DNA from: a virus
Length of the DNA stretch: 45,824 nucleotides
IMG/VR virus record: IMGVR_UViG_3300021368_001939
Location: 1-45,824 of that record
Direction: 5' to 3' (one strand)
Numbering within the stretch: position 1 is the stretch's first letter; each line of letters starts with the position of its first letter. The notes under the pieces were generated by a model, which worked only from the letters and a program-made list of their open reading frames with translations, was not told the DNA's origin and made no database searches. The position numbers and the translations under genes were made by a program. Of the stretch, positions 32,947 to 45,545 are shown in pieces.

Positions 32947-35900
32947 TTGCCATTAAATAAATTAGATTCAATTATCAAAAATACTGATGGTCGTATAATC
33001 TACGTTAGTCCTTCCGATTTAGATTCTACCGATAGTATTGATAATCAAGGAAACTCACTAAATCGTCCATTTAAGACTCTTCAAAGAGCACTGATCGAAT
33101 CTGCAAGATTCTCATATGTCAGAGGAAGTAGTAATGATATAGTAGAGAAAACTACAATTCTCTTAATGCCTGGAAGTCATGTTATAGATAATCGTCCAGG
33201 ATATACAATTGACAGTGGAGGAGCAGTTATAACCTCTGAAGGAGATTCTTCCTCTAGAAGTACTTTTAATTTATCATTAAATTCTAATTTAGACTTAACA
33301 GACAAAAATAATGATCTTTATAAGTTTAATAGTGTTTATGGTGGTGTAATTGTTCCTAGGGGAACTTCAATTGTTGGTCTTGATTTAAGAAAAACTAAAA
33401 TAAGACCTCTTTATGTTCCTAACCCAACATTCTCTTCAATTTCTAATAGTGCAATTTTAAGGCTTACTGGAGCTTGTTATGTTTGGCAGTTCTCTATTTT
33501 TGATGGGGATGACTCTGGAACTGTTTACACGCAACCAGATAATTTTGATATTAAATCTATCCCAACTTTTTCTCACCATAAGTTATCAGTATTTGAATAT
33601 GCCGATGGTGTCAATGAAGTTGGAACTAAAGGTCTGACCGACCTTCAAATGTATTATGCCAAATTGTCATATGCATATTCCTCAAGTTCGGGTAGAGGAA
33701 TTAATACTGCGGATGAGTATCTTGAAAATCCTGAAGGATTTAGTCCAAGAAGACCTGAATATGAAATTGTTGGAGCATTTTCCGCAGATCCTATTTCAAT
33801 TGCATCTATCATATCCGGTGATGGATTAACTGCATCAAGAGTCATTACAGTTACTACAGTTACTCCTCATGGATTGGATAAAGGAACTCCAATTCGTATT
33901 AGTGGTGTTTCGCAAGATCAATATAATATTTCAACTAAAGTTGCATCAATTAGTGATACTAATGATAGTGTATTTACTTATGTAATTGAATCTGATCCAA
34001 GATTTTTAACTCCATCATTAACGAGTCAAGGAATAGTAAATGTAGATACTGATACAGTATCTGGTGCCTCTCCTTATGTTTTTAATGTGAGCATGAGATC
34101 TGTTTGGGGGATGAATGGATTAATTGCTGATGGAAACAAGGCAACTGGATTCCGTAGCATTGTGATCAGTCAATTCACTGGAATTAGCCTCCAAAAAGAT
34201 GATAGGTCTTTTGTCAAATATGATGCATCTAATGGTAGAACTTATAGTGGATTAACAATCACTGAACAGTCAGGAAGTGAGTTATCGGCAAATTCTTCTT
34301 CGAGTGGAATAGTTTATCATCTAGATTCTGATTCGGTTTATAGGAAAGATTGGCAACAGTCTCATATTAAAATAAAAAATGATGCTATTTTACAAATAGT
34401 ATCAGTCTTTGCAATTGGATATAGTACGCAGTTTGTTTCCGAATCTGGTGGTGATGCATCGATAACGAACTCTAATTCAAATTTTGGTCAACTATCTTTA
34501 GTTTCTGAAGGATTTAAAAAAACAGCATTTGATAAAGATAATAAAGCATTTATAACTCATATTATTTCACCAAGAGCAGTTGATCAAATTGAAGATAGAG
34601 TTGATTGGTTGTCAATTGATGATGGAGTAACAACATCTGTTGGTGATAGTAATAAAATTTATCTTGCCGGATTTAAAAACGAAACAGTCCCTCCACCATC
34701 ATTAACACAAGGATATCGTATTGGAGCAAGAGTATCTGATAAACTTTATTTAACTCTCAATAATGTAGAATATTCTGCAGATATTGTAATTCCATCTAGT
34801 AATCAATCTTCATTTGAAGAATATCTTGTAGGAGAACCTTCTTCAAATATATTCACTCTTTCTTCTGGAACTCATAGTTTATCTACAGGCGAAAAAGTTA
34901 TTATTATTAGTGAAGATGCAGATCTTCCAGAAAATTTAAGAACAAATGTAATCTACTATGCAATTACTCCTTCAAATAATACAATTAAACTTGCCGCAAC
35001 AGAGTCTGAAGCACTTTCTGGTCAAGAAATTAATGTTTTTGGTGGAACTAATTTAAAAATACAATCAAGAGTTTCTGATAAATCATCTGGTGATGTTAGA
35101 CATCCAATTCAATGGGATTCAATTCGTGAGCAATGGTATATCAATGTAATTAATAATTTAATTACCCCGCAACTTTCTGGATCTGGAATAACAGAACCAC
35201 TTTTTGTTAAAAGAATATCTGATTCTAGAAGTCTTGATGAAAAAATTTATAAGGTCAGGGTAGTAGTTCCGAGACAACTTACAAATGGAAAAAATCCAGA
35301 ACCTGGATTTGTTATTCAAGAATCAAGTTCTACAGGATTTTTTGAAGATGATGATGGAACGAAAACAACTATTGATTCTACAGATTTTGATTATAATAAA
35401 AATCTAAGATTTATTAGTACTTGCTCTTTCTCATCACCAACGGTAACAGTAATTTCAGAAATTCCTCATAACTTAAATGTTGGAGATACAGTAATAATTA
35501 AAAATGTTACAGATTCTAGTGTTAGTGGTCTTGCATATAATGGAACTCATACCGTAACTTCTATTACCAATGAATTGACATTTACTTATGATACAGAATT
35601 AACTCCTGGATCTTTTACAAATGACACTTCTGTTAGAACAAAATCACTCCCAAGATTTGAGAGAAATGATTTACAATCAAATCTCTACATTTATAGAAAT
35701 GAAATTATTTCAGAATATGATGAAGGAGAAAGAAATGGTGTATATAATTTTTATGTATTAAATTCCAATAATCAAGTTCAAACTGAATTTACAGATCTTA
35801 AATATGGACAAAATGTAGTTGACTTATATCCACAAAATGATAGAGATAATATTAGCGAAAACCCAAGATCTGCAAAATCATATGCACTAAGATCACCAAT

Positions 35901-38148
35901 TGGAGATGTTCAGACAAATGATCTCAGAAATAGTATTACAAGAGAAAGTATTGATTTATTTGTCAAAACATTAGGTATTGGAAATAAAATTTCATCAATT
36001 TCTGGTGCGGGAACTACTAATCCGATCATAACTTTCGATAGAAATCATAATTTTAATAGTATTGTAATTGGAAGTATTAATGCTTCCCCAACAGGATTTA
36101 CTGCCGGAACATATTATAATGTAAAAATTTATAATAATTCTTTATTAACAATTTGGAATGGTGCTACTGCGAAAGTGATTGTTTCCGGTGCAGGTAATAT
36201 AACATCTGCGGAAATTATAAATGGAGGATCTGGATATTCTGCCGGAACATATTACTTAGATACTAATATTATTGGTTCTGGATCTAATAATGATTTTACT
36301 GTTGCTTCTGATGGAATTTCTTCACCAATAGGTCAAGTTGTTCAATTTACTGGTGTTGGAACTACATCAGATAATTATCATCGTATCTCAGCAGTTAATT
36401 CTGCAAATCAAATAACAATTGAAAGGTCTACGAGTGAACCAGTTATTGTTACAGATCAATATGCTCTTTTAGTTGCACCTTCAACATCATTCACCAGTAT
36501 TGGCAATACAATTACTGCACCTAGTCATGGATTGGTAGTTGGAAATAGATTTAAATCAATTGACTCTTCAAATAATAATCTTGGAGATTATATTGTTGAT
36601 AGTGTAATTAATGTTAATACCTTTACTATTTCTGGTGTAATGGGATCAACTTCTGGATTTATTCTGAAGCACGGATTATCATCTAATGCGGGTATTTCTG
36701 ATGGTTCAAATGAAAATCTTGAGGTAAGAGGAATCACTATCTTTGATGGAGAAAAGTTAACTCTTACAGAATCTGGAGGTATAGACAGTTCAGAAACGCA
36801 ATTTAGTGTTAGTCATTCTGGTATTGGTACTGCAGAAAGATTCTCACTAGGTTCTTATATTAAAGTTGATGGTGAGATCATGAGAATTGCAAGTAATTCT
36901 CTTAGTGGAGTTCCTGCGGATAAAATTACAGTGATTCGTGGAGTATTTTCATCTAAACAAAAATCACACCCTGAGAATTCATTAATCACTAAAATTAAAA
37001 TTCCTGCGGTCGAATTTCGTAGACCATCAATTATTCGTGCTTCTGGACATACTTTTGAGTATCTTGGATATGGTCCGGGAAATTATTCTACAGCACTCCC
37101 ACAAGTCCAGAATAAAACTTTATCAGAAAGAGAAGAATTTTTAGTTCAATCTCAAGAAAGATCATCTGGTATTGTTGTTTATAATGGTATGAACAATAAA
37201 GGAGATTTCTTTATTGGCAATCAAAAGAAGTCTTCTACAACAGGTGAGGAAACAACTTTTGATACCCCAATTCCTACTGTAACTGGACAAAGTGTATCAA
37301 GATTAAGTGAAGTATTTGATGAAGTCACAATTAAGGAGAGATTAATTGTAGAAGGAGGAGACTCTGGACAATCACTTTCTCAATTTGATGGATCTGTTAC
37401 ATTTAATTCAGAAACTAGATTTACAAATTCTAATGGAATAGAAGGATCTGCAGCAATAAATGTTTCTAATACAAAACAATCAACAGCAACAAATTCTGGA
37501 GCACTTATTGTTGCAGGTGGAGTTGGTATTGGAAAAGATTTATATGTTGGAGGAACAATATATGGTCTTGGTGGTTTATCTATTAGTTTGATAAACATAT
37601 CTCCAAAACAAGTTCTTTTTTCAAATTCCAATTCTTTTCTTGATGGTGATAATAAATTTACTTTTGAACAATCAACATCAACATTAGGAATTAATAGTAT
37701 TTCAGTATATGAATCTGGCGGCAATTCTTATATTGAAGAAATTGATTCTAAAGATTTAATATTAAAAGCATATTCTTCAGATAAATTAATTATTAATGGA
37801 GTAGGAGTTAGTATTACTGGAAATCTTGATGTTACTGGAGATGTAAATTCTTTCTCAACATCTGATGAGAAGTTAAAAGATAATATTATCCCAATTCATA
37901 ATCCATTAGAAAAAGTTATTTCGATTAGTGGAAATACTTTTGATTGGAATGAAAATTCTAATAAAGAAGGTCATGATGTTGGATTGATTGCACAAGAGAT
38001 TCAAAAAATTCTTCCTGAGGCAGTTAAGGAAAGAGATGATGGTTATCTTGCCGTTGATTATAAAAAGATAATTCCTCTGCTTGTAGAATCTATTAAAGAA
38101 CTTTCTAATAAGGTCGAATCGATTGAGCATCAATTAAAGAATAAATAA
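32947..38148 (+). CDS. Giant tail fibre / structural protein with S74 chaperone domain
   Basis: The 1733-residue protein starts at TTG 32947; no ATG exists upstream in frame before a stop. The N-terminal part has GNSLNRPFKTLQRALIESAR, a pectate-lyase-like fibre-attachment segment common in cyanophage fibres. The middle is beta-rich with repeated PHGLxxGTxIRIS-type modules (near 290, 835 and 1190). The C-terminus (~1640-1733) is an S74 chaperone: SDEKLKDNI supplies Ser and Lys, then GLIAQEIQKILPEAV, DYKKIIPLLVESIKEL and a coiled coil. It likely forms the long fibre used for adsorption. Confidence 0.88.
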   Translation: MPLNKLDSIIKNTDGRIIYVSPSDLDSTDSIDNQGNSLNRPFKTLQRALIESARFSYVRGSSNDIVEKTTILLMPGSHVIDNRPGYTIDSGGAVITSEGDSSSRSTFNLSLNSNLDLTDKNNDLYKFNSVYGGVIVPRGTSIVGLDLRKTKIRPLYVPNPTFSSISNSAILRLTGACYVWQFSIFDGDDSGTVYTQPDNFDIKSIPTFSHHKLSVFEYADGVNEVGTKGLTDLQMYYAKLSYAYSSSSGRGINTADEYLENPEGFSPRRPEYEIVGAFSADPISIASIISGDGLTASRVITVTTVTPHGLDKGTPIRISGVSQDQYNISTKVASISDTNDSVFTYVIESDPRFLTPSLTSQGIVNVDTDTVSGASPYVFNVSMRSVWGMNGLIADGNKATGFRSIVISQFTGISLQKDDRSFVKYDASNGRTYSGLTITEQSGSELSANSSSSGIVYHLDSDSVYRKDWQQSHIKIKNDAILQIVSVFAIGYSTQFVSESGGDASITNSNSNFGQLSLVSEGFKKTAFDKDNKAFITHIISPRAVDQIEDRVDWLSIDDGVTTSVGDSNKIYLAGFKNETVPPPSLTQGYRIGARVSDKLYLTLNNVEYSADIVIPSSNQSSFEEYLVGEPSSNIFTLSSGTHSLSTGEKVIIISEDADLPENLRTNVIYYAITPSNNTIKLAATESEALSGQEINVFGGTNLKIQSRVSDKSSGDVRHPIQWDSIREQWYINVINNLITPQLSGSGITEPLFVKRISDSRSLDEKIYKVRVVVPRQLTNGKNPEPGFVIQESSSTGFFEDDDGTKTTIDSTDFDYNKNLRFISTCSFSSPTVTVISEIPHNLNVGDTVIIKNVTDSSVSGLAYNGTHTVTSITNELTFTYDTELTPGSFTNDTSVRTKSLPRFERNDLQSNLYIYRNEIISEYDEGERNGVYNFYVLNSNNQVQTEFTDLKYGQNVVDLYPQNDRDNISENPRSAKSYALRSPIGDVQTNDLRNSITRESIDLFVKTLGIGNKISSISGAGTTNPIITFDRNHNFNSIVIGSINASPTGFTAGTYYNVKIYNNSLLTIWNGATAKVIVSGAGNITSAEIINGGSGYSAGTYYLDTNIIGSGSNNDFTVASDGISSPIGQVVQFTGVGTTSDNYHRISAVNSANQITIERSTSEPVIVTDQYALLVAPSTSFTSIGNTITAPSHGLVVGNRFKSIDSSNNNLGDYIVDSVINVNTFTISGVMGSTSGFILKHGLSSNAGISDGSNENLEVRGITIFDGEKLTLTESGGIDSSETQFSVSHSGIGTAERFSLGSYIKVDGEIMRIASNSLSGVPADKITVIRGVFSSKQKSHPENSLITKIKIPAVEFRRPSIIRASGHTFEYLGYGPGNYSTALPQVQNKTLSEREEFLVQSQERSSGIVVYNGMNNKGDFFIGNQKKSSTTGEETTFDTPIPTVTGQSVSRLSEVFDEVTIKERLIVEGGDSGQSLSQFDGSVTFNSETRFTNSNGIEGSAAINVSNTKQSTATNSGALIVAGGVGIGKDLYVGGTIYGLGGLSISLINISPKQVLFSNSNSFLDGDNKFTFEQSTSTLGINSISVYESGGNSYIEEIDSKDLILKAYSSDKLIINGVGVSITGNLDVTGDVNSFSTSDEKLKDNIIPIHNPLEKVISISGNTFDWNENSNKEGHDVGLIAQEIQKILPEAVKERDDGYLAVDYKKIIPLLVESIKELSNKVESIEHQLKNK
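38141..38147 (+). promoter_or_regulatory. Late promoter ATAAATA
   Basis: ATAAATA overlaps the stop region of the giant fibre gene, 18 nt before the ATG at 38166. Confidence 0.55.
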
Positions 38149-40662: not shown

Positions 40663-40672
40663 AATGTATAAT
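40644..40672 (+). promoter_or_regulatory. Promoter nested in terminator
   Basis: TTCATA (the terminator loop, 40644-40649) and TATAAT (40667-40672) are 17 nt apart. Initiation near 40679 would drive the helicase gene. Confidence 0.7.
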
Positions 40673-40696
40673 AAGTCCATAGTTCACCACACACCA

Positions 40697-41866
40697 GTGA
40701 CAATCACTCTTCGTCCACACCAGCAAGATGCCACCAAGGCAATGCTGAAGCATGATCGTGGGCAGATCATAATTCCAACTGGTGGTGGAAAGACCATGTG
40801 CATGATTCATGATACTCAGACACATTTCAAACTATTTGACAATCAAGTTCATGTGGTAGTCGCACCACGAATCTTGTTAGCAGATCAATTGTGCTCTGAA
40901 TTTCTAGAACACATCAATGCTCATGTGCTCCATGTGCATAGTGGAGATACAGAGCACTTTAGCACCACAAAAGCAAAGACCATCAAAGCATGGTCTGAGA
41001 ATGTTGGTGGTAATCAACTCATCTTTACGACTTATAACTCTCTTCATCGTATTGAAGAATCTGGTATTAAAGTAGATTCGATTTACTTTGATGAAGCACA
41101 CAATAGTGTCAAGAGAAACTTCTTTCCTTCTACTGAGTTTTTCAGTCATAATGCTGATCGTTGTTATTTCTTTACGGCAACACGTCGTACTTCTGCAACT
41201 ATTTTTAAACCCGGTATGAATGATACTGAGGTATATGGTGATGTAATTTATCGTGTTCCTGCACCTAAGTTGGTTGAGGAAGGATACATTCTTCCCCCCC
41301 AAATCAAATCAAAAAAGTTTGAGTTATTAAATCCTAAGGAAGTTACTTCCGAATGTGATTGTAATAATATTGTAAGGACATTAAAAGAAAATAACAAAAA
41401 CAAAATTCTTATTTGTGTTAAGAGCACAAAGCAACTTACTCACCTGATGTCAGAAACTGATTTTGCAGTTCAACTGTATGATATGGGATATTCAGTCCTT
41501 AGTATTACATCAAAAACTGGTGCTATTATTGATGGACAGGAAGTTGATCGTGAGGAGTTTTTTAGGACTCTGAATGCATGGGGCAAAGATCCAAACAAAA
41601 AATTTGTTTGTCTTCATCATTCAATTTTGAGTGAGGGAATTTCTGTTAATGGTCTTGAGTCCGTTATTTTTCTTCGCAATATGAATATTGTTGAGATGAT
41701 ACAAACAATTGGTAGAGTTCTTCGAACCGCTCCTGATAAAACTTATGGACTTTGTGTCGTCCCAGTGTATTCGAAAAATGGCATTTCCACTGAAAAGTCA
41801 CTTCAAAATGTTGTTGATACTGTTTTCGGTCGTGGTGAGATGCTTGATTCTGTTGTTCGGAGGTGA
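40697..41866 (+). CDS. uvsW: SF2 helicase, UvsW-like
   Basis: The GTG at 40697 gives 389 residues starting (GTG)TITLRPHQQDATKAM. ATG 40664 is in frame, but it lies upstream of the predicted transcription start and overlaps the -10. Motif I is PTGGGKT, motif II DEAH, motif III TATRR, and motif VI QTIGRVLR, all of superfamily 2. It is shorter than T4 UvsW (503), lacking the N-terminal domain. UvsW-type helicases process forks and R-loops and help switch replication to recombination-dependent mode. It ends 43 nt before an HNH gene. Confidence 0.85.
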   Translation: MTITLRPHQQDATKAMLKHDRGQIIIPTGGGKTMCMIHDTQTHFKLFDNQVHVVVAPRILLADQLCSEFLEHINAHVLHVHSGDTEHFSTTKAKTIKAWSENVGGNQLIFTTYNSLHRIEESGIKVDSIYFDEAHNSVKRNFFPSTEFFSHNADRCYFFTATRRTSATIFKPGMNDTEVYGDVIYRVPAPKLVEEGYILPPQIKSKKFELLNPKEVTSECDCNNIVRTLKENNKNKILICVKSTKQLTHLMSETDFAVQLYDMGYSVLSITSKTGAIIDGQEVDREEFFRTLNAWGKDPNKKFVCLHHSILSEGISVNGLESVIFLRNMNIVEMIQTIGRVLRTAPDKTYGLCVVPVYSKNGISTEKSLQNVVDTVFGRGEMLDSVVRR

Positions 41867-42615: not shown

Positions 42616-43245
42616 ATGCAGCAAACGGACATTAATCTTGAAGGAGCACTGGATAGACTCAAAACAATTAAAGCACCAAGTCGAAAGAAGATTGAAATAT
42701 ATGCGAAGAGGTGTTATCAAGTTACAATGAGTGATGATACTCTGAAATGGTGGAATGATGAAAAGTCTGATAAGGATGTAGCCCGTGCAATCACACGACC
42801 ATTTTATGATCTTGTTCATTCCTGTTCAGTACCTACAGGTTTGATTACTAAGAATGCATTTGAGAATCGTTTGCAAGATCGTACTTATATTCCTACCAAA
42901 GATCATATTTTTCGTCCACAATTCATTTGTCGATATATGCTAGATAATTCTAGTAAATTCAAAGATTTTTCTATCTTTCGTGAGTGGATGATTATGTGTT
43001 GTTCTACTACATTAGTGACGAAAGAAGAAAATGCCGATCTTCGTATCTCTGGAACAAATAATAGGGGTGAGGATTATGTTCTTCTAAGTTCGACTGATAG
43101 TCAGTACAGAAAGATTGAATTAAAATTATTTTCTCATAGTAATCATAGGTCTTGGAGTGATCGTACAATTCAAGAGTCTTCTAATCTTATTAGTCCCCCA
43201 CAAGAACTATTAGAGTATGAAGTGCCATTTTTAGACAATCTTTAA
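42616..43245 (+). CDS. Conserved hypothetical protein
   Basis: The 209-residue protein starts MQQTDINLEGALDRLKTIKA and has KDVARAITRPFYDLVHSC, TKDHIFRPQFICRYMLDN and FREWMIMCCSTTLVTKEENA. The second half (GEDYVLLSSTDSQYRKIELK) could be a beta core, but no D-x-K nuclease motif is clear. I recognise the style as a conserved cyanophage protein without a known role. It has its own promoter and long leader. Confidence 0.65.
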   Translation: MQQTDINLEGALDRLKTIKAPSRKKIEIYAKRCYQVTMSDDTLKWWNDEKSDKDVARAITRPFYDLVHSCSVPTGLITKNAFENRLQDRTYIPTKDHIFRPQFICRYMLDNSSKFKDFSIFREWMIMCCSTTLVTKEENADLRISGTNNRGEDYVLLSSTDSQYRKIELKLFSHSNHRSWSDRTIQESSNLISPPQELLEYEVPFLDNL

Positions 43246-43260
43246 ACTGGCACTCTGTCC

Positions 43261-43289
43261 TTGACTCTGCCCTGACTCTGCCCTATAAT
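43261..43289 (+). promoter_or_regulatory. Sigma70 promoter built from 11-nt repeats
   Basis: TTGACT (43261-43266) and TATAAT (43284-43289) are 17 nt apart. The spacer and -35 are made of repeated GACTCTGCCCT units; a similar arrangement occurs at 45209-45248. Confidence 0.8.
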
Positions 43290-43315
43290 ACAAAGGTAAT
43301 CAAGGGAACACCACC

Positions 43316-43459
43316 ATGAAATGCAAAGTCGAACTCTATGTTGCTGGCACTGTCTTTTATGAGACCGTTCATGCCCGTGACTATCAAGAAGCAAAAAAAG
43401 TAGCACTGGCACGTAATCCGAATGCTACTGTTGTTTCTGTCAATGCATCTTTCTTCTAA
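43316..43459 (+). CDS. Small hypothetical protein
   Basis: The 47-residue protein reads MKCKVELYVAGTVFYETVHA then RDYQEAKKVALARNPNATVV. It is a compact beta-alpha-beta-type sequence ending NASFF. It is the first gene of a small-ORF operon from the strong promoter at 43261. Its stop overlaps the next start (TAATG). The function is unknown. Confidence 0.65.
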   Translation: MKCKVELYVAGTVFYETVHARDYQEAKKVALARNPNATVVSVNASFF

Positions 43460-43671
43460 TGACTGAACAACAACTGACTGACGCAATCTGCGACCAAATT
43501 CAAGATTCAGTCCACCGCTGGGGGCGCGACAACATGCGAGCTGGCGCTGATTGGCAGATGCAGCAGGCTATTCGGCGCTTTGATGACTGGCATCTTAAGA
43601 CTCACGGATGGTCTATCGCAATTATTGAACTTGAGAGATTGTTGCGCCCCACCACACAGGAAGACAACTGA
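43459..43671 (+). CDS. Tandem paralogue 1 (MT..QLTD...DWQ...RP family)
   Basis: The 70-residue protein starts MTEQQLTDAICDQIQDSVHR, has AGADWQMQQAIRRFDDW in the middle and ends LERLLRPTTQEDN. The LTD start, ADWQxxQxI core and RPTTQE end are shared with the next three genes. Function is unknown. Start and stop are coupled to neighbours by TAATG and TGATG overlaps. Confidence 0.7.
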   Translation: MTEQQLTDAICDQIQDSVHRWGRDNMRAGADWQMQQAIRRFDDWHLKTHGWSIAIIELERLLRPTTQEDN

Positions 43672-43955
43672 TGACTAACCAACACCCACTGACTGACGAC
43701 ATCATTCGATACGATAAAAAACTAGGATGCCAGGATTTTGGCACTTGGATTTACACCGAAAATGATCTACGGGCTGCTACTGATTGGCAACTGAAGCAGG
43801 TGCTTGAATGGTTAAAAACTAATACTGAAGATTACGTATTAGAAGATTATTACAGCACTTATTTTCTTATCGAAGCTTTTCTTGATGACTTCAAGAAAGC
43901 AATGCGCCCCACCACGCAGGAGGAAAACTGATGACTGACCAACACCCACTGACTA
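43644..43955 (+). repeat. Repeated gene-junction cassette (two ~52-nt copies)
   Basis: 43644-43696 and 43904-43955 are near copies: GCGCCCCACCAC, a Shine-Dalgarno stretch, ACTGATGACT and CAACACCCACTGACT. They end one paralogue, carry the ribosome site and start the next. Shorter copies occur at 44140, 44320, 44570 and 45140. Confidence 0.75.
43671..43931 (+). CDS. Tandem paralogue 2
   Basis: The 86-residue protein starts MTNQHPLTDDIIRYDKKLGC, has LRAATDWQLKQVLEWLKTN and ends KAMRPTTQEEN. The variable middle (TEDYVLEDYYSTYFLIEAFL) distinguishes it from its neighbours. It overlaps both neighbours by one base (TGATG). Confidence 0.7.
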   Translation: MTNQHPLTDDIIRYDKKLGCQDFGTWIYTENDLRAATDWQLKQVLEWLKTNTEDYVLEDYYSTYFLIEAFLDDFKKAMRPTTQEEN

Positions 43956-44161
43956 ACAAAGATTTAGAAGATCTTGAAAAGTTATTGACCAGTAGCGTAC
44001 TGGGGCAACTTGTTCTGCCTTCTGACTTTGAGCTTGCCCGTGCCGCTGCTGATTGGCAGTTGGAACAGTGTATTGCCTGGTTAGATGACACCGATTGCGA
44101 TAATCCACAAGAAACAGCACAAAGATTGAGAGAAGCAATGCGCCCACAGGAGGACTCATGA
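43931..44161 (+). CDS. Tandem paralogue 3
   Basis: The 76-residue protein starts MTDQHPLTNKDLEDLEKLLT, has ARAAADWQLEQCIAWLDD and ends REAMRPQEDS. It shares ends and core with the adjacent copies. Its stop overlaps the next start by 4 nt. Confidence 0.7.
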   Translation: MTDQHPLTNKDLEDLEKLLTSSVLGQLVLPSDFELARAAADWQLEQCIAWLDDTDCDNPQETAQRLREAMRPQEDS

Positions 44162-44319
44162 AAACTATGATCACTATTTCGCTAACAAAAGAAGAAGCTA
44201 TCTACCTTACAAAGATTCTTTATGACAATAGTTGTGGTAACGAACGTAGTACTTCAGAGAATGGATCGTTATTAGATGAACTTGTAGATTTATTAGAAGT
44301 AAAACCGTGGGATCTATAG
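44158..44319 (+). CDS. Small hypothetical protein within paralogue cluster
   Basis: The 53-residue protein reads MKTMITISLTKEEAIYLTKI and ends LDELVDLLEVKPWDL. It looks helical and is not a member of the flanking paralogue family. CAGGAGG precedes the ATG, and a GGAGG follows for the next gene. Function is unknown. Confidence 0.65.
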   Translation: MKTMITISLTKEEAIYLTKILYDNSCGNERSTSENGSLLDELVDLLEVKPWDL

Positions 44320-44330
44320 GAGGATAACTG

Positions 44331-44567
44331 ATGACTGAACACCCACTGACTGACTCTTTCCTTCAAAGTTACTACAAATACGGCGATGGTCCTTACGATG
44401 AGGATCAAATGCGTGATGTTGCTGATCGGCAGTTGGAGCAGGTGATTGCTTGGTTGGAAGACAATCTAGGTTCTAGAATGTACTTGCATCTGGATGAAGA
44501 CAGCGGTACAGAAGTGAACGTTGGTTACGTTATTCAACACCTTCGCGAAGAAATGCGCCCATTATGA
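44331..44567 (+). CDS. Tandem paralogue 4
   Basis: The 78-residue protein starts MTEHPLTDSFLQSYYKYGDG, has RDVADRQLEQVIAWLEDN and ends HLREEMRPL. It is the most diverged copy, with RQ for WQ in the core. TAGGAGG lies 10 nt before the ATG. Confidence 0.7.
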   Translation: MTEHPLTDSFLQSYYKYGDGPYDEDQMRDVADRQLEQVIAWLEDNLGSRMYLHLDEDSGTEVNVGYVIQHLREEMRPL

Positions 44568-44590
44568 AACAACAAACAGGAGAACAACTG

Positions 44591-44878
44591 ATGACTGACC
44601 TATCACCAGCCGCGCAAGCTGTGCTGGACGCCTTCGGTAAGCACCCCCTGCACGCCGATCACATAGACAACAATCTGATACACGGCGCCCTTCCCGCCGC
44701 CCTGGAGACTGTTGCGGATCAGGTGGTGCCATTTGCTGAGATTACTCCTCAAGAGGATCTTGAAAGCCGCAGAGAAGCAATGGCCTGGGGGATGCAACAC
44801 CAGGCCCAGCTCACCCGTCAACAACTCCTCGCCATCGCCGCTGAGCTGCGCACTAACCTTATTGAGCCAAAGAACTAA
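44591..44878 (+). CDS. GC-rich Ala-rich hypothetical protein
   Basis: AGGAG lies 8 nt before ATG 44591, preferred over the in-frame ATG 44564. The 95-residue product starts MTDLSPAAQAVLDAFGKHPL and ends RQQLLAIAAELRTNLIEP. By hand count it is about 57% GC, far above most of the window, suggesting recent transfer or host origin. Similar Ala-rich SPAAQAVLDAF proteins occur in cyanophages (recollection). Confidence 0.68.
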   Translation: MTDLSPAAQAVLDAFGKHPLHADHIDNNLIHGALPAALETVADQVVPFAEITPQEDLESRREAMAWGMQHQAQLTRQQLLAIAAELRTNLIEPKN

Positions 44879-44943
44879 TGGAATTGCTACTACTTGGAAG
44901 GATCTGAAAGAGACAATGATTGAACAACAACACAGGAAGACTC

Positions 44944-45108
44944 ATGATTAGGCTAATTCAATTTCTTTTCTCTGGATGCTTCAATCAATGGAAAATTATT
45001 AAACAACAACTAACAAACTTTGACTATGGGTGGTGTAATGGAACCGCCATTAAGTACACTTTACGATGCAAAAAGTGTGGAGCTATGAAAACCTTCCTCG
45101 CAAAATAA
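44944..45108 (+). CDS. Small single zinc-knuckle protein
   Basis: The 54-residue protein reads MIRLIQFLFSGCFNQWKIIK and ends RCKKCGAMKTFLAK. One CxxC pair plus upstream C12 and C31 could bind zinc or form a half zinc ribbon. AGGAAG lies just upstream of the ATG. Similar RCKKCG proteins are common in cyanophages (recollection). The function is unknown. Confidence 0.62.
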   Translation: MIRLIQFLFSGCFNQWKIIKQQLTNFDYGWCNGTAIKYTLRCKKCGAMKTFLAK

Positions 45109-45109
45109 A

Positions 45110-45166
45110 CGATGGTTTCTAAGAAGAGAACTCAAAAAAGCAATGCGCCCACAGGATAACAAATAG
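45110..45166 (+). pseudogene. Fragment of a tandem paralogue C-terminus
   Basis: The frame gives RRELKKAMRPQDNK then stop, matching the (L)REAMRPQE end of the paralogues at 43459-44567, but no start or core is present. It is probably a remnant of a deleted copy. Confidence 0.5.
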
Positions 45167-45220
45167 TGGAGTCACTAGAAGAACGATTTGAGGACACTCC
45201 CTGAACTGTCCACTCTGCCC

Positions 45221-45248
45221 CTGACTCTGCCCCACTCTGCCCTATACT
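45221..45248 (+). promoter_or_regulatory. Promoter CTGACT-16-TATACT built from repeats
   Basis: CTGACT (45221-45226) and TATACT (45243-45248) lie in a run of CACTCTGCCC/GACTCTGCCC units, like the promoter at 43261. It would drive the gene at 45273. Confidence 0.65.
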
Positions 45249-45272
45249 AAGTTCATCAACGCAACACACATC

Positions 45273-45545
45273 ATGTTCCACTACACACCGACCGTCAAGG
45301 AGTGTAAAGACTACCTGATCAACGAAAAGGGTTGGACATTCGTTAAGAAGTGTCCAAATCTGCATTATTACTATTGGAAGACCAATGGTAATGATAACTG
45401 GTCTCATAGTAAAATCTGGACTATGAAAGAAATGCGTCATGGTGTTGAGCGTATGAGGATGCAAGATTGGTTGGATGCTGAGTATGAGAAACTTCGTCAA
45501 GGTATTCAACTGTCAATGTTCAATGATTGGGAGTATGTAAACTAA
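45273..45545 (+). CDS. Hypothetical protein
   Basis: The 90-residue protein starts MFHYTPTVKECKDYLINEKG and is Trp/Tyr/Lys rich (CPNLHYYYWKTNGNDNW), ending MFNDWEYVN. The pattern suggests a small folded domain, but no family is recognised. Its stop overlaps the next start (TAATG). Confidence 0.65.
   Translation: MFHYTPTVKECKDYLINEKGWTFVKKCPNLHYYYWKTNGNDNWSHSKIWTMKEMRHGVERMRMQDWLDAEYEKLRQGIQLSMFNDWEYVN

Follow-up and report, generated by a model that had tools for sequence, protein, structure and literature searches.

The DNA analysed here, called the window throughout, is a 45,824-base virus record that reads as a contig of a Synechococcus-phage-like virus. A helicase gene at 40664-41866, carrying ResIII/DEAD and Helicase_C domains, is predicted to be UvsW-like from its similarity to the S-SKS1 helicase and from gene order. 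It is followed by a 209-aa gene, the 47-aa phrog_685 gene and, further downstream, an array of small genes. Related contigs carry L numbers. The elements of the region are as follows:

43234..43300, + strand: promoter cassette upstream of the operon, with a candidate promoter TTGACT-17-TATAAT at 43261-43289 and CTCTGCCC repeats
43316..43459, + strand: phrog_685 protein, 47 aa (E=4e-27), opening the operon and bordering the array on the left
43459..43671, + strand: paralogue w1 (HMM E=4e-18), with N cassette DAICDQIQDSVHRWGRDN, hinge and a unique C cassette
43671..43931, + strand: paralogue w2, with the N cassette of L006/L008/L009 and a C cassette whose DNA matches L004:6001-6276 at 100% identity
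43931..44161, + strand: paralogue w3 (HMM match), both cassettes unique in this sample
44158..44319, + strand: 53-aa gene inside the array, unrelated to the paralogues, its start overlapping the w3 stop (ATGA)
44331..44567, + strand: paralogue w4, 100% identical in DNA to L017:1110-1361 over the N cassette and most of the hinge, with abrupt divergence thereafter
44591..44878, + strand: member of a third family, LSPAAQAVLDAF...LLAIAAEL, with C cassette PQEDLESRREAMxWGM
44920..45108, + strand: ORF with a CxxC pair, 62 aa, phrog_8294-like (E=3.1e-5), its start possibly at 44944-44946
about 45128..45166, + strand: orphan end anchor reading ELKKAMRPQDNK*, the fragment of the original prediction
45193..45275, + strand: second promoter-like cassette with CTCTGCCC repeats, at the right border of the array

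The candidate promoter at 43261-43289 matches the consensus at 11 of 12 positions; it is predicted to be of the host-type early kind, and the array is predicted to be expressed from it. The surrounding cassette may be a mobile early promoter, since similar DNA is found at various places in 31 Synechococcus phage records. Two promoter-like copies with CTCTGCCC repeats, at 43234-43300 and 45193-45275, flank the array. The phrog_685 region at 43316-43459 is labelled 'RNA polymerase inhibitor' in some cyanophage records.

The original prediction, made from the letters of the window, described four intact paralogues and one fragment, and the ORFs, the HMM and the orphan end anchor all agree with it. 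The intact ORFs encode 70, 86, 76 and 78 aa. One of them used as a query matches two others (E = 2e-6 and 3.6e-6), and all four are retrieved by an iterative HMM, at E = 4e-18 or better, together with dozens of relatives, which indicates that the paralogy is not due to chance. The shared starts, cores and ends described earlier hold in general, with MT(x)(Q)HPLTD-like starts, an ADWQLEQ-like core in all four and an MRP end, but w1 departs from this pattern at both extremities (MTEQQLTD at the start, LLRP at the end). Each gene is laid out as an HPLTD start anchor, an N cassette, the hinge MRAAADWQLEQVIEWL, a C cassette and an AMRP end anchor whose tail codes a Shine-Dalgarno (SD) sequence. Hence what had been described as different middles is indeed variable, but consists of two separate cassettes, one on either side of the core. 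This two-cassette mosaic, which had been overlooked, is the main feature of the array.

The junctions between the genes are nearly identical in DNA, as had been noticed: a 55-nt repeat occurs at 43643-43697 and, with 91% identity, at 43903-43957; the start segment recurs at 44328-44354. Paralogues w1 and w2, as well as w2 and w3, are joined by TGATG overlaps. The conserved tail QE(E/D)N is coded by CAGGAGGA-type DNA, which is the Shine-Dalgarno sequence of the next gene. Indeed, AGGA lies within the last eight codons in 51 of 57 full family members, as against 3 of 30 other window ORFs, and this coding-embedded ribosome site accounts for part of the shared ends. The small genes inserted in the array had been taken as unrelated, which is true of the 53-aa gene (no significant family match among PHROG and Pfam profiles) but not of 44591-44878, which belongs to another cassette-shuffled family. 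The small CxxC protein at 44920-45108 has relatives in other arrays (L011, L018, L046 and L055) and possibly represents a further array family.

Relatives were collected by two IMG/VR scans, which gave 18 and 39 loci and 40 distinct contigs in total; the query of the 39-locus scan was the consensus protein, no alignment stretch of 7-10 columns being conserved enough. With the window and the isolate S-SKS1, the sample comprises 42 contigs and 82 ORFs, among them 57 full members; it is nearly all metagenomic, and flanks stop at contig ends. Fixed, syntenic single-copy orthologues, named in the original prediction as an argument against dynamic expansion, were not seen: copies range from 1 to 5 per locus. 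A single copy is present in 19 of the 42 contigs, many of these being contig ends, and the tandem array is thus not essential. S-SKS1 is the only isolate found with this family; its single copy occupies the same position, after the helicase and phrog_685. In L004 and L053, the order is helicase, 209-aa gene, phrog_685 and array as in the window, the phrog_685-array order being common to the window, L004, L053 and S-SKS1. Other loci mostly have no helicase within the fetched flank; either the family is also located elsewhere or these contigs end too early.

At one and the same locus, even near-identical phages differ in what the array contains. Around the helicase gene, the window and L004 share 97-99.7% identity, but their arrays have entirely different content; identity is 88.6% over 42641-43470, up to the first bases of the array, and beyond this point only cassettes and anchors match. 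The same holds more broadly for the window, L004, L053 and S-SKS1, which share the locus and differ in content. The description of this region as a diversification hot spot is therefore well founded.

Comparison at the DNA level reveals how the halves of the genes are separated. Paralogue w4 is identical to its counterpart in L017 over the start anchor, the N cassette and nearly the whole hinge, and departs from it immediately afterwards, while in w2 the C half is identical in DNA to L004 and the N half matches L008, not L004. The N cassette of w1 is common to L004, L016 and L049, with a different C cassette in each. Likewise, the C2 cassette is found as 100% identical DNA in three contigs, each time behind a different N cassette. 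The near-identical phages L004 and L017 illustrate an exchange of this kind: they are 98.8% identical over 855 b up to a hinge, then 638 b are replaced by 126 b, and identity resumes at 98.5%; the replaced segment begins in a hinge and finishes in a PKPPSLK anchor. When shared coding segments (at least 60 nt, at least 85% identity) were considered, 43 of 52 internal segment ends fell in the hinge plus or minus two codons, a zone of about 30% of the length (binomial 5e-15, the pairs not being independent). As every member has a conserved hinge, it is there that shared segments tend to stop, and the informative part of this count is how seldom breaks occur within cassettes. Phages exchange cassettes with one another, and the breakpoints lie in the hinge and at the junctions. 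The junctions are also crossed between families, as in the fusions of L004 and L017. At L004:6529-6918 and L017:969-1115, the HPLTD start anchor is fused to the end part, with PKPPSLK, that belongs to the phrog_32006 family.

It is most improbable that these mosaics are chimeras in which the assembler joined unrelated fragments at short repeats such as the hinge and the junction: although the relatives are nearly all metagenomic contigs and the breakpoints fall in repeated DNA, the copies of most shared cassettes diverge by between a few and 15%, mainly at synonymous positions, which mis-joined reads would not yield, some combinations recur in independent assemblies (L004/L012 and L032/L033), the isolate S-SKS1 has a C cassette (C6) that also stands behind two other N cassettes, and the V2 cassette of the isolate S-CBS2, from the sister family described below, is about 80% identical to cassettes with other partners.

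To describe the pairing of cassettes, the 57 full members were split at the conserved hinge, with cassette borders set by pattern rules; identical proteins were merged beforehand, so the figures refer to distinct proteins. Cassettes were called alike at 60% identity or above and unrelated below 35%, thresholds of our own choice, and the pairs are not independent. N cassettes are alike in 26 pairs, and in 24 of these the C cassettes are unrelated. Conversely, among pairs with alike C cassettes, the N cassettes are unrelated in 28, and both cassettes are alike in 2 pairs. The members form 40 N clusters and 32 C clusters, assembled into 55 distinct N-C combinations among 57 proteins; nearly all multi-member N clusters are paired with more than one C cluster, and the reverse also holds. 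Repeated combinations were observed twice against 0.76 expected at random, a value reached by 17% of shuffles. In this sample, N-C pairing is indistinguishable from free assortment. By a rough Chao1 estimate, the family has about 100 N cassettes and 64 C cassettes. No convincing case was found of a cassette that had switched position, from N to C or the reverse, or had passed from one family to another, the best scores coming from a mis-parsed member.

These counts also bear on the possibility that the array arose by ordinary tandem duplication and divergence, its conserved ends being structural remnants. The tandem genes, with their shared anchors and near-identical junction DNA, would fit such an origin, but in none of 42 pairs do two genes of the same locus have a cassette in common (the between-locus rate would predict 1.97, a difference not significant alone), whereas cassettes are shared between contigs 73 times. 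Moreover, identical cassettes adjoin unrelated partners, and the mosaic counts largely refute this explanation, which we consider very unlikely. Variety is drawn mainly from a population-wide pool rather than from local duplication; since no same-locus pair shares a cassette, local tandem expansion is not its main source. The proposal that copies expand and recombine through their junctions is thus correct as to exchange at junctions, but the principal process is exchange at the hinge from a shared pool.

The ratio pN/pS is 0.05 for the start anchor, 0.19 for the end anchor, 0.21 for the hinge, 0.31 for the N cassettes and 0.43 for the C cassettes. Anchors and cassettes are under purifying selection, and these values indicate that both are maintained as protein. 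Furthermore, the hinge has 47 distinct DNA forms for 28 peptides, its protein sequence being conserved. Recombination debris is frequent, for instance a hinge-less gene (L006:6263-6436), a doubled start (L005:6949-7320) and a short deletion form (L056:360-500). Such debris, including fusions and orphan ends, together with the fast turnover of the array, would be in line with selfish or neutral shuffling, in which the anchors are merely recombination-prone repeats, the proteins have little function and genes turn over in a ratchet-like manner. In addition, an S-PM2 mutant without a large ORFan region, at another locus, outgrew the wild type in culture (PMC4503421). However, the pN/pS values of 0.31-0.43 in cassettes and 0.05-0.21 in anchors reveal selection on the proteins, and the hinge is kept as a peptide while its DNA varies. 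Neutral shuffling is therefore an unlikely account of the array.

A sister family with the same construction was found via L005:4734-5048. It corresponds to phrog_32006, is present in at least 547 IMG/VR stretches and follows the pattern HPITPPPELV...ELEACCEWL...RRPKPPSLKEQAL...IRRALE, with three cassettes (V1 to V3). Among pairs alike in V1, V2 is unrelated in 27 of 32 and V3 in 19 of 22; when V2 is alike, V1 is unrelated in 73 of 79 and V3 in 54 of 62; when V3 is alike, V1 is unrelated in 31 of 33 and V2 in 26 of 33. The isolates S-H1, S-CBS2 and S-RIP1, the last in Autographiviridae, have one match each. Profile comparison aligns the present family with phrog_32006 over both anchors and the hinge (hhalign 96.8%, E=2e-10). 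At E<=0.01, the phrog_32006 profile matches 51 of 51 sister proteins and 0 of 54 members of the present family. As judged from these profiles, the present family is a distant homologue of phrog_32006 and not a member of it. Both come from Synechococcus phages and follow the same anchor-cassette plan, but phrog_32006 has three cassettes and, in addition, a further anchor at the C-terminus.

At 44591-44878, the window encodes a member of a third family, relatives of which are present in 28 of the 86 loci that carry phrog_32006-like genes. Its C cassette is also found in L064 and L117 behind other N cassettes, the comparison with the window being made by inspection, and the family shows the same cassette behaviour in a small sample (31 parsed members). 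Host genomes gave no match for the present family when scanned, and a single one for the sister family, in L145, a contig of a Cyanobium MAG. There, sister and third-family genes are accompanied by two ORFs, one exonuclease-like and one large and portal-like; judged by inspection, L145 is probably viral and not host. The families are phage-restricted and confined to cyanophages, the sole host-genome match being this phage-like contig.

The AlphaFold2 model of w2 (mean pLDDT 81) contains a helix at 9-18, a long helix at 30-55 running over the hinge, a helix at 67-77 and a beta hairpin within the C cassette. The model of a sister protein (pLDDT 85.6) has helices at 11-22, 32-59 (long) and 63-75 and two more, and its start is like that of w2. 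A fold search of the PDB with window and sister models returned no significant match; in BFVD, only the S-SKS1 relative stands out (E=4.7e-3), and the sister model had no fold match. The top Foldseek matches are mostly histone H4 at E>=2, with VIA-align Z of at most 4.6, a level common for helical models; the resemblance to the histone fold, with its short, long and short helices, is too weak to use. Pfam, PHROGs (for function), PADLOC and PDB sequence searches returned nothing informative for the array proteins, and no PADLOC model or known anti-phage defence protein matched at E<=1. No database or fold match thus speaks for or against the anti-host factors suggested in the original prediction. 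The proteins are acidic, with a mean net charge of -8.5, which is compatible with many roles.

Several known systems resemble the array in part. In HsdS, the specificity subunit of type I restriction systems, TRD1 and TRD2 are swapped by recombination in conserved parts (PMC3077401). The array works like HsdS, with two variable segments lying between conserved regions and exchanged at conserved segments, without being a member of it. HsdS is far larger and has HsdM and HsdR as partners, whereas the array proteins have 70-104 aa and their cassettes are short (mostly 13-50 aa) and fixed to the N or C position. Furthermore, the array proteins carry no HsdS-type Pfam domain, and no restriction-modification gene stands beside the array in the window. 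The PeSL cassettes of T4-type phages are, in the account given by PMC4503421 of Arbiol 2010 and Comeau 2014, small early genes shuffled at short conserved junctions. Recombination at short junctions and a flanking promoter cassette bring the array close to these hyperplastic regions as described there. However, in that account T4 moves whole genes at intergenic promoter-terminator motifs, whereas the array also breaks inside genes and has as junctions a start anchor with a coding-embedded SD sequence. Membership, which would call for an early promoter with a stem-loop where the genes meet, was rejected, as the strong promoter stands only upstream of the operon and promoter-like matches near the genes are at chance level. 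The cassettes do not form the template/variable repeat pair, differing at adenines, of diversity-generating retroelement targets, being unrelated sequences of differing length rather than adenine-substituted copies. Smug et al. 2023 (PMC10684548) described how phages have recently exchanged fragments of their proteins, a process linked to arms races; it concerns mainly receptor-binding proteins, endolysins and replication proteins, whereas the array consists of tiny arrayed proteins in which two or three cassettes assort nearly at random. In the literature searched, which covered few subscription papers, the motif strings of the family were not found. Broader searches of it returned only general mosaicism and T4 cassette work, and we found there no publication that describes these families or reports free assortment for phage proteins this small.

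Collectively, these data favour, with a probability of about 0.62, a reading in which the array encodes small acidic phage proteins built from interchangeable cassettes, shuffled by recombination and probably acting on the host, the last point being a putative role. Each gene combines an ATG/HPLTD start anchor and an N cassette with a hinge predicted to fold as a long central helix, followed by a C cassette and an AMRP end anchor whose tail codes the Shine-Dalgarno sequence of the next gene. T4-like phages recombine at high rates, and exchange would proceed by homologous recombination at the short conserved anchors between co-infecting cyanophages. Since each unit brings the ribosome site of the next, an imported unit could be expressed at once from the upstream promoter. 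The anchors would then act as a constant scaffold, and the cassettes may be variable surfaces binding varying host targets, a putative role in host takeover or counter-defence favouring their diversity.

Alternatively, the proteins could target rival co-infecting phages, through superinfection exclusion or phage-phage immunity, which would favour diversity drawn from a shared pool. The passage of cassettes between distinct phages implies frequent co-infection, and the families are confined to cyanophages, both of which suit this role; but an operon with a host-like promoter upstream is equally expected of host-directed early genes, and we regard a rival-phage target as rather improbable. Beyond the preferred host-directed reading, it is conceivable, and we propose it only tentatively, that a shared open cassette pool, two or three cassettes being combined on a constant helical scaffold, serves as a population-wide combinatorial binding repertoire against host or rival-phage targets across unrelated Synechococcus phage groups.

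The array appears to be a so far unrecognised means by which viruses of aquatic cyanobacteria produce protein variety. Synechococcus phages are rich in small genes of unknown function, and at least three families of such genes are built in one way, from constant anchors and cassettes that assort freely, phrog_32006 being an abundant example. Since genes of this type resemble unrelated ORFans in ordinary clustering, part of the apparent wealth of ORFans may stem from recombination within a limited pool of cassettes. Should the cassettes be recognition surfaces, cyanophages would run a combinatorial arms race of a kind not described in the literature searched.

Two minor observations can be added. 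The 1733-aa protein at 32947-38148 of the window carries a Peptidase_S74 (endosialidase chaperone) domain at its C-terminus and is probably a tail fibre or spike. In the closely related contigs L020 and L021 (6236-6424 and 6236-6403, respectively), the threonine run that follows AMRPA differs in length, which suggests slippage in the tail repeat.
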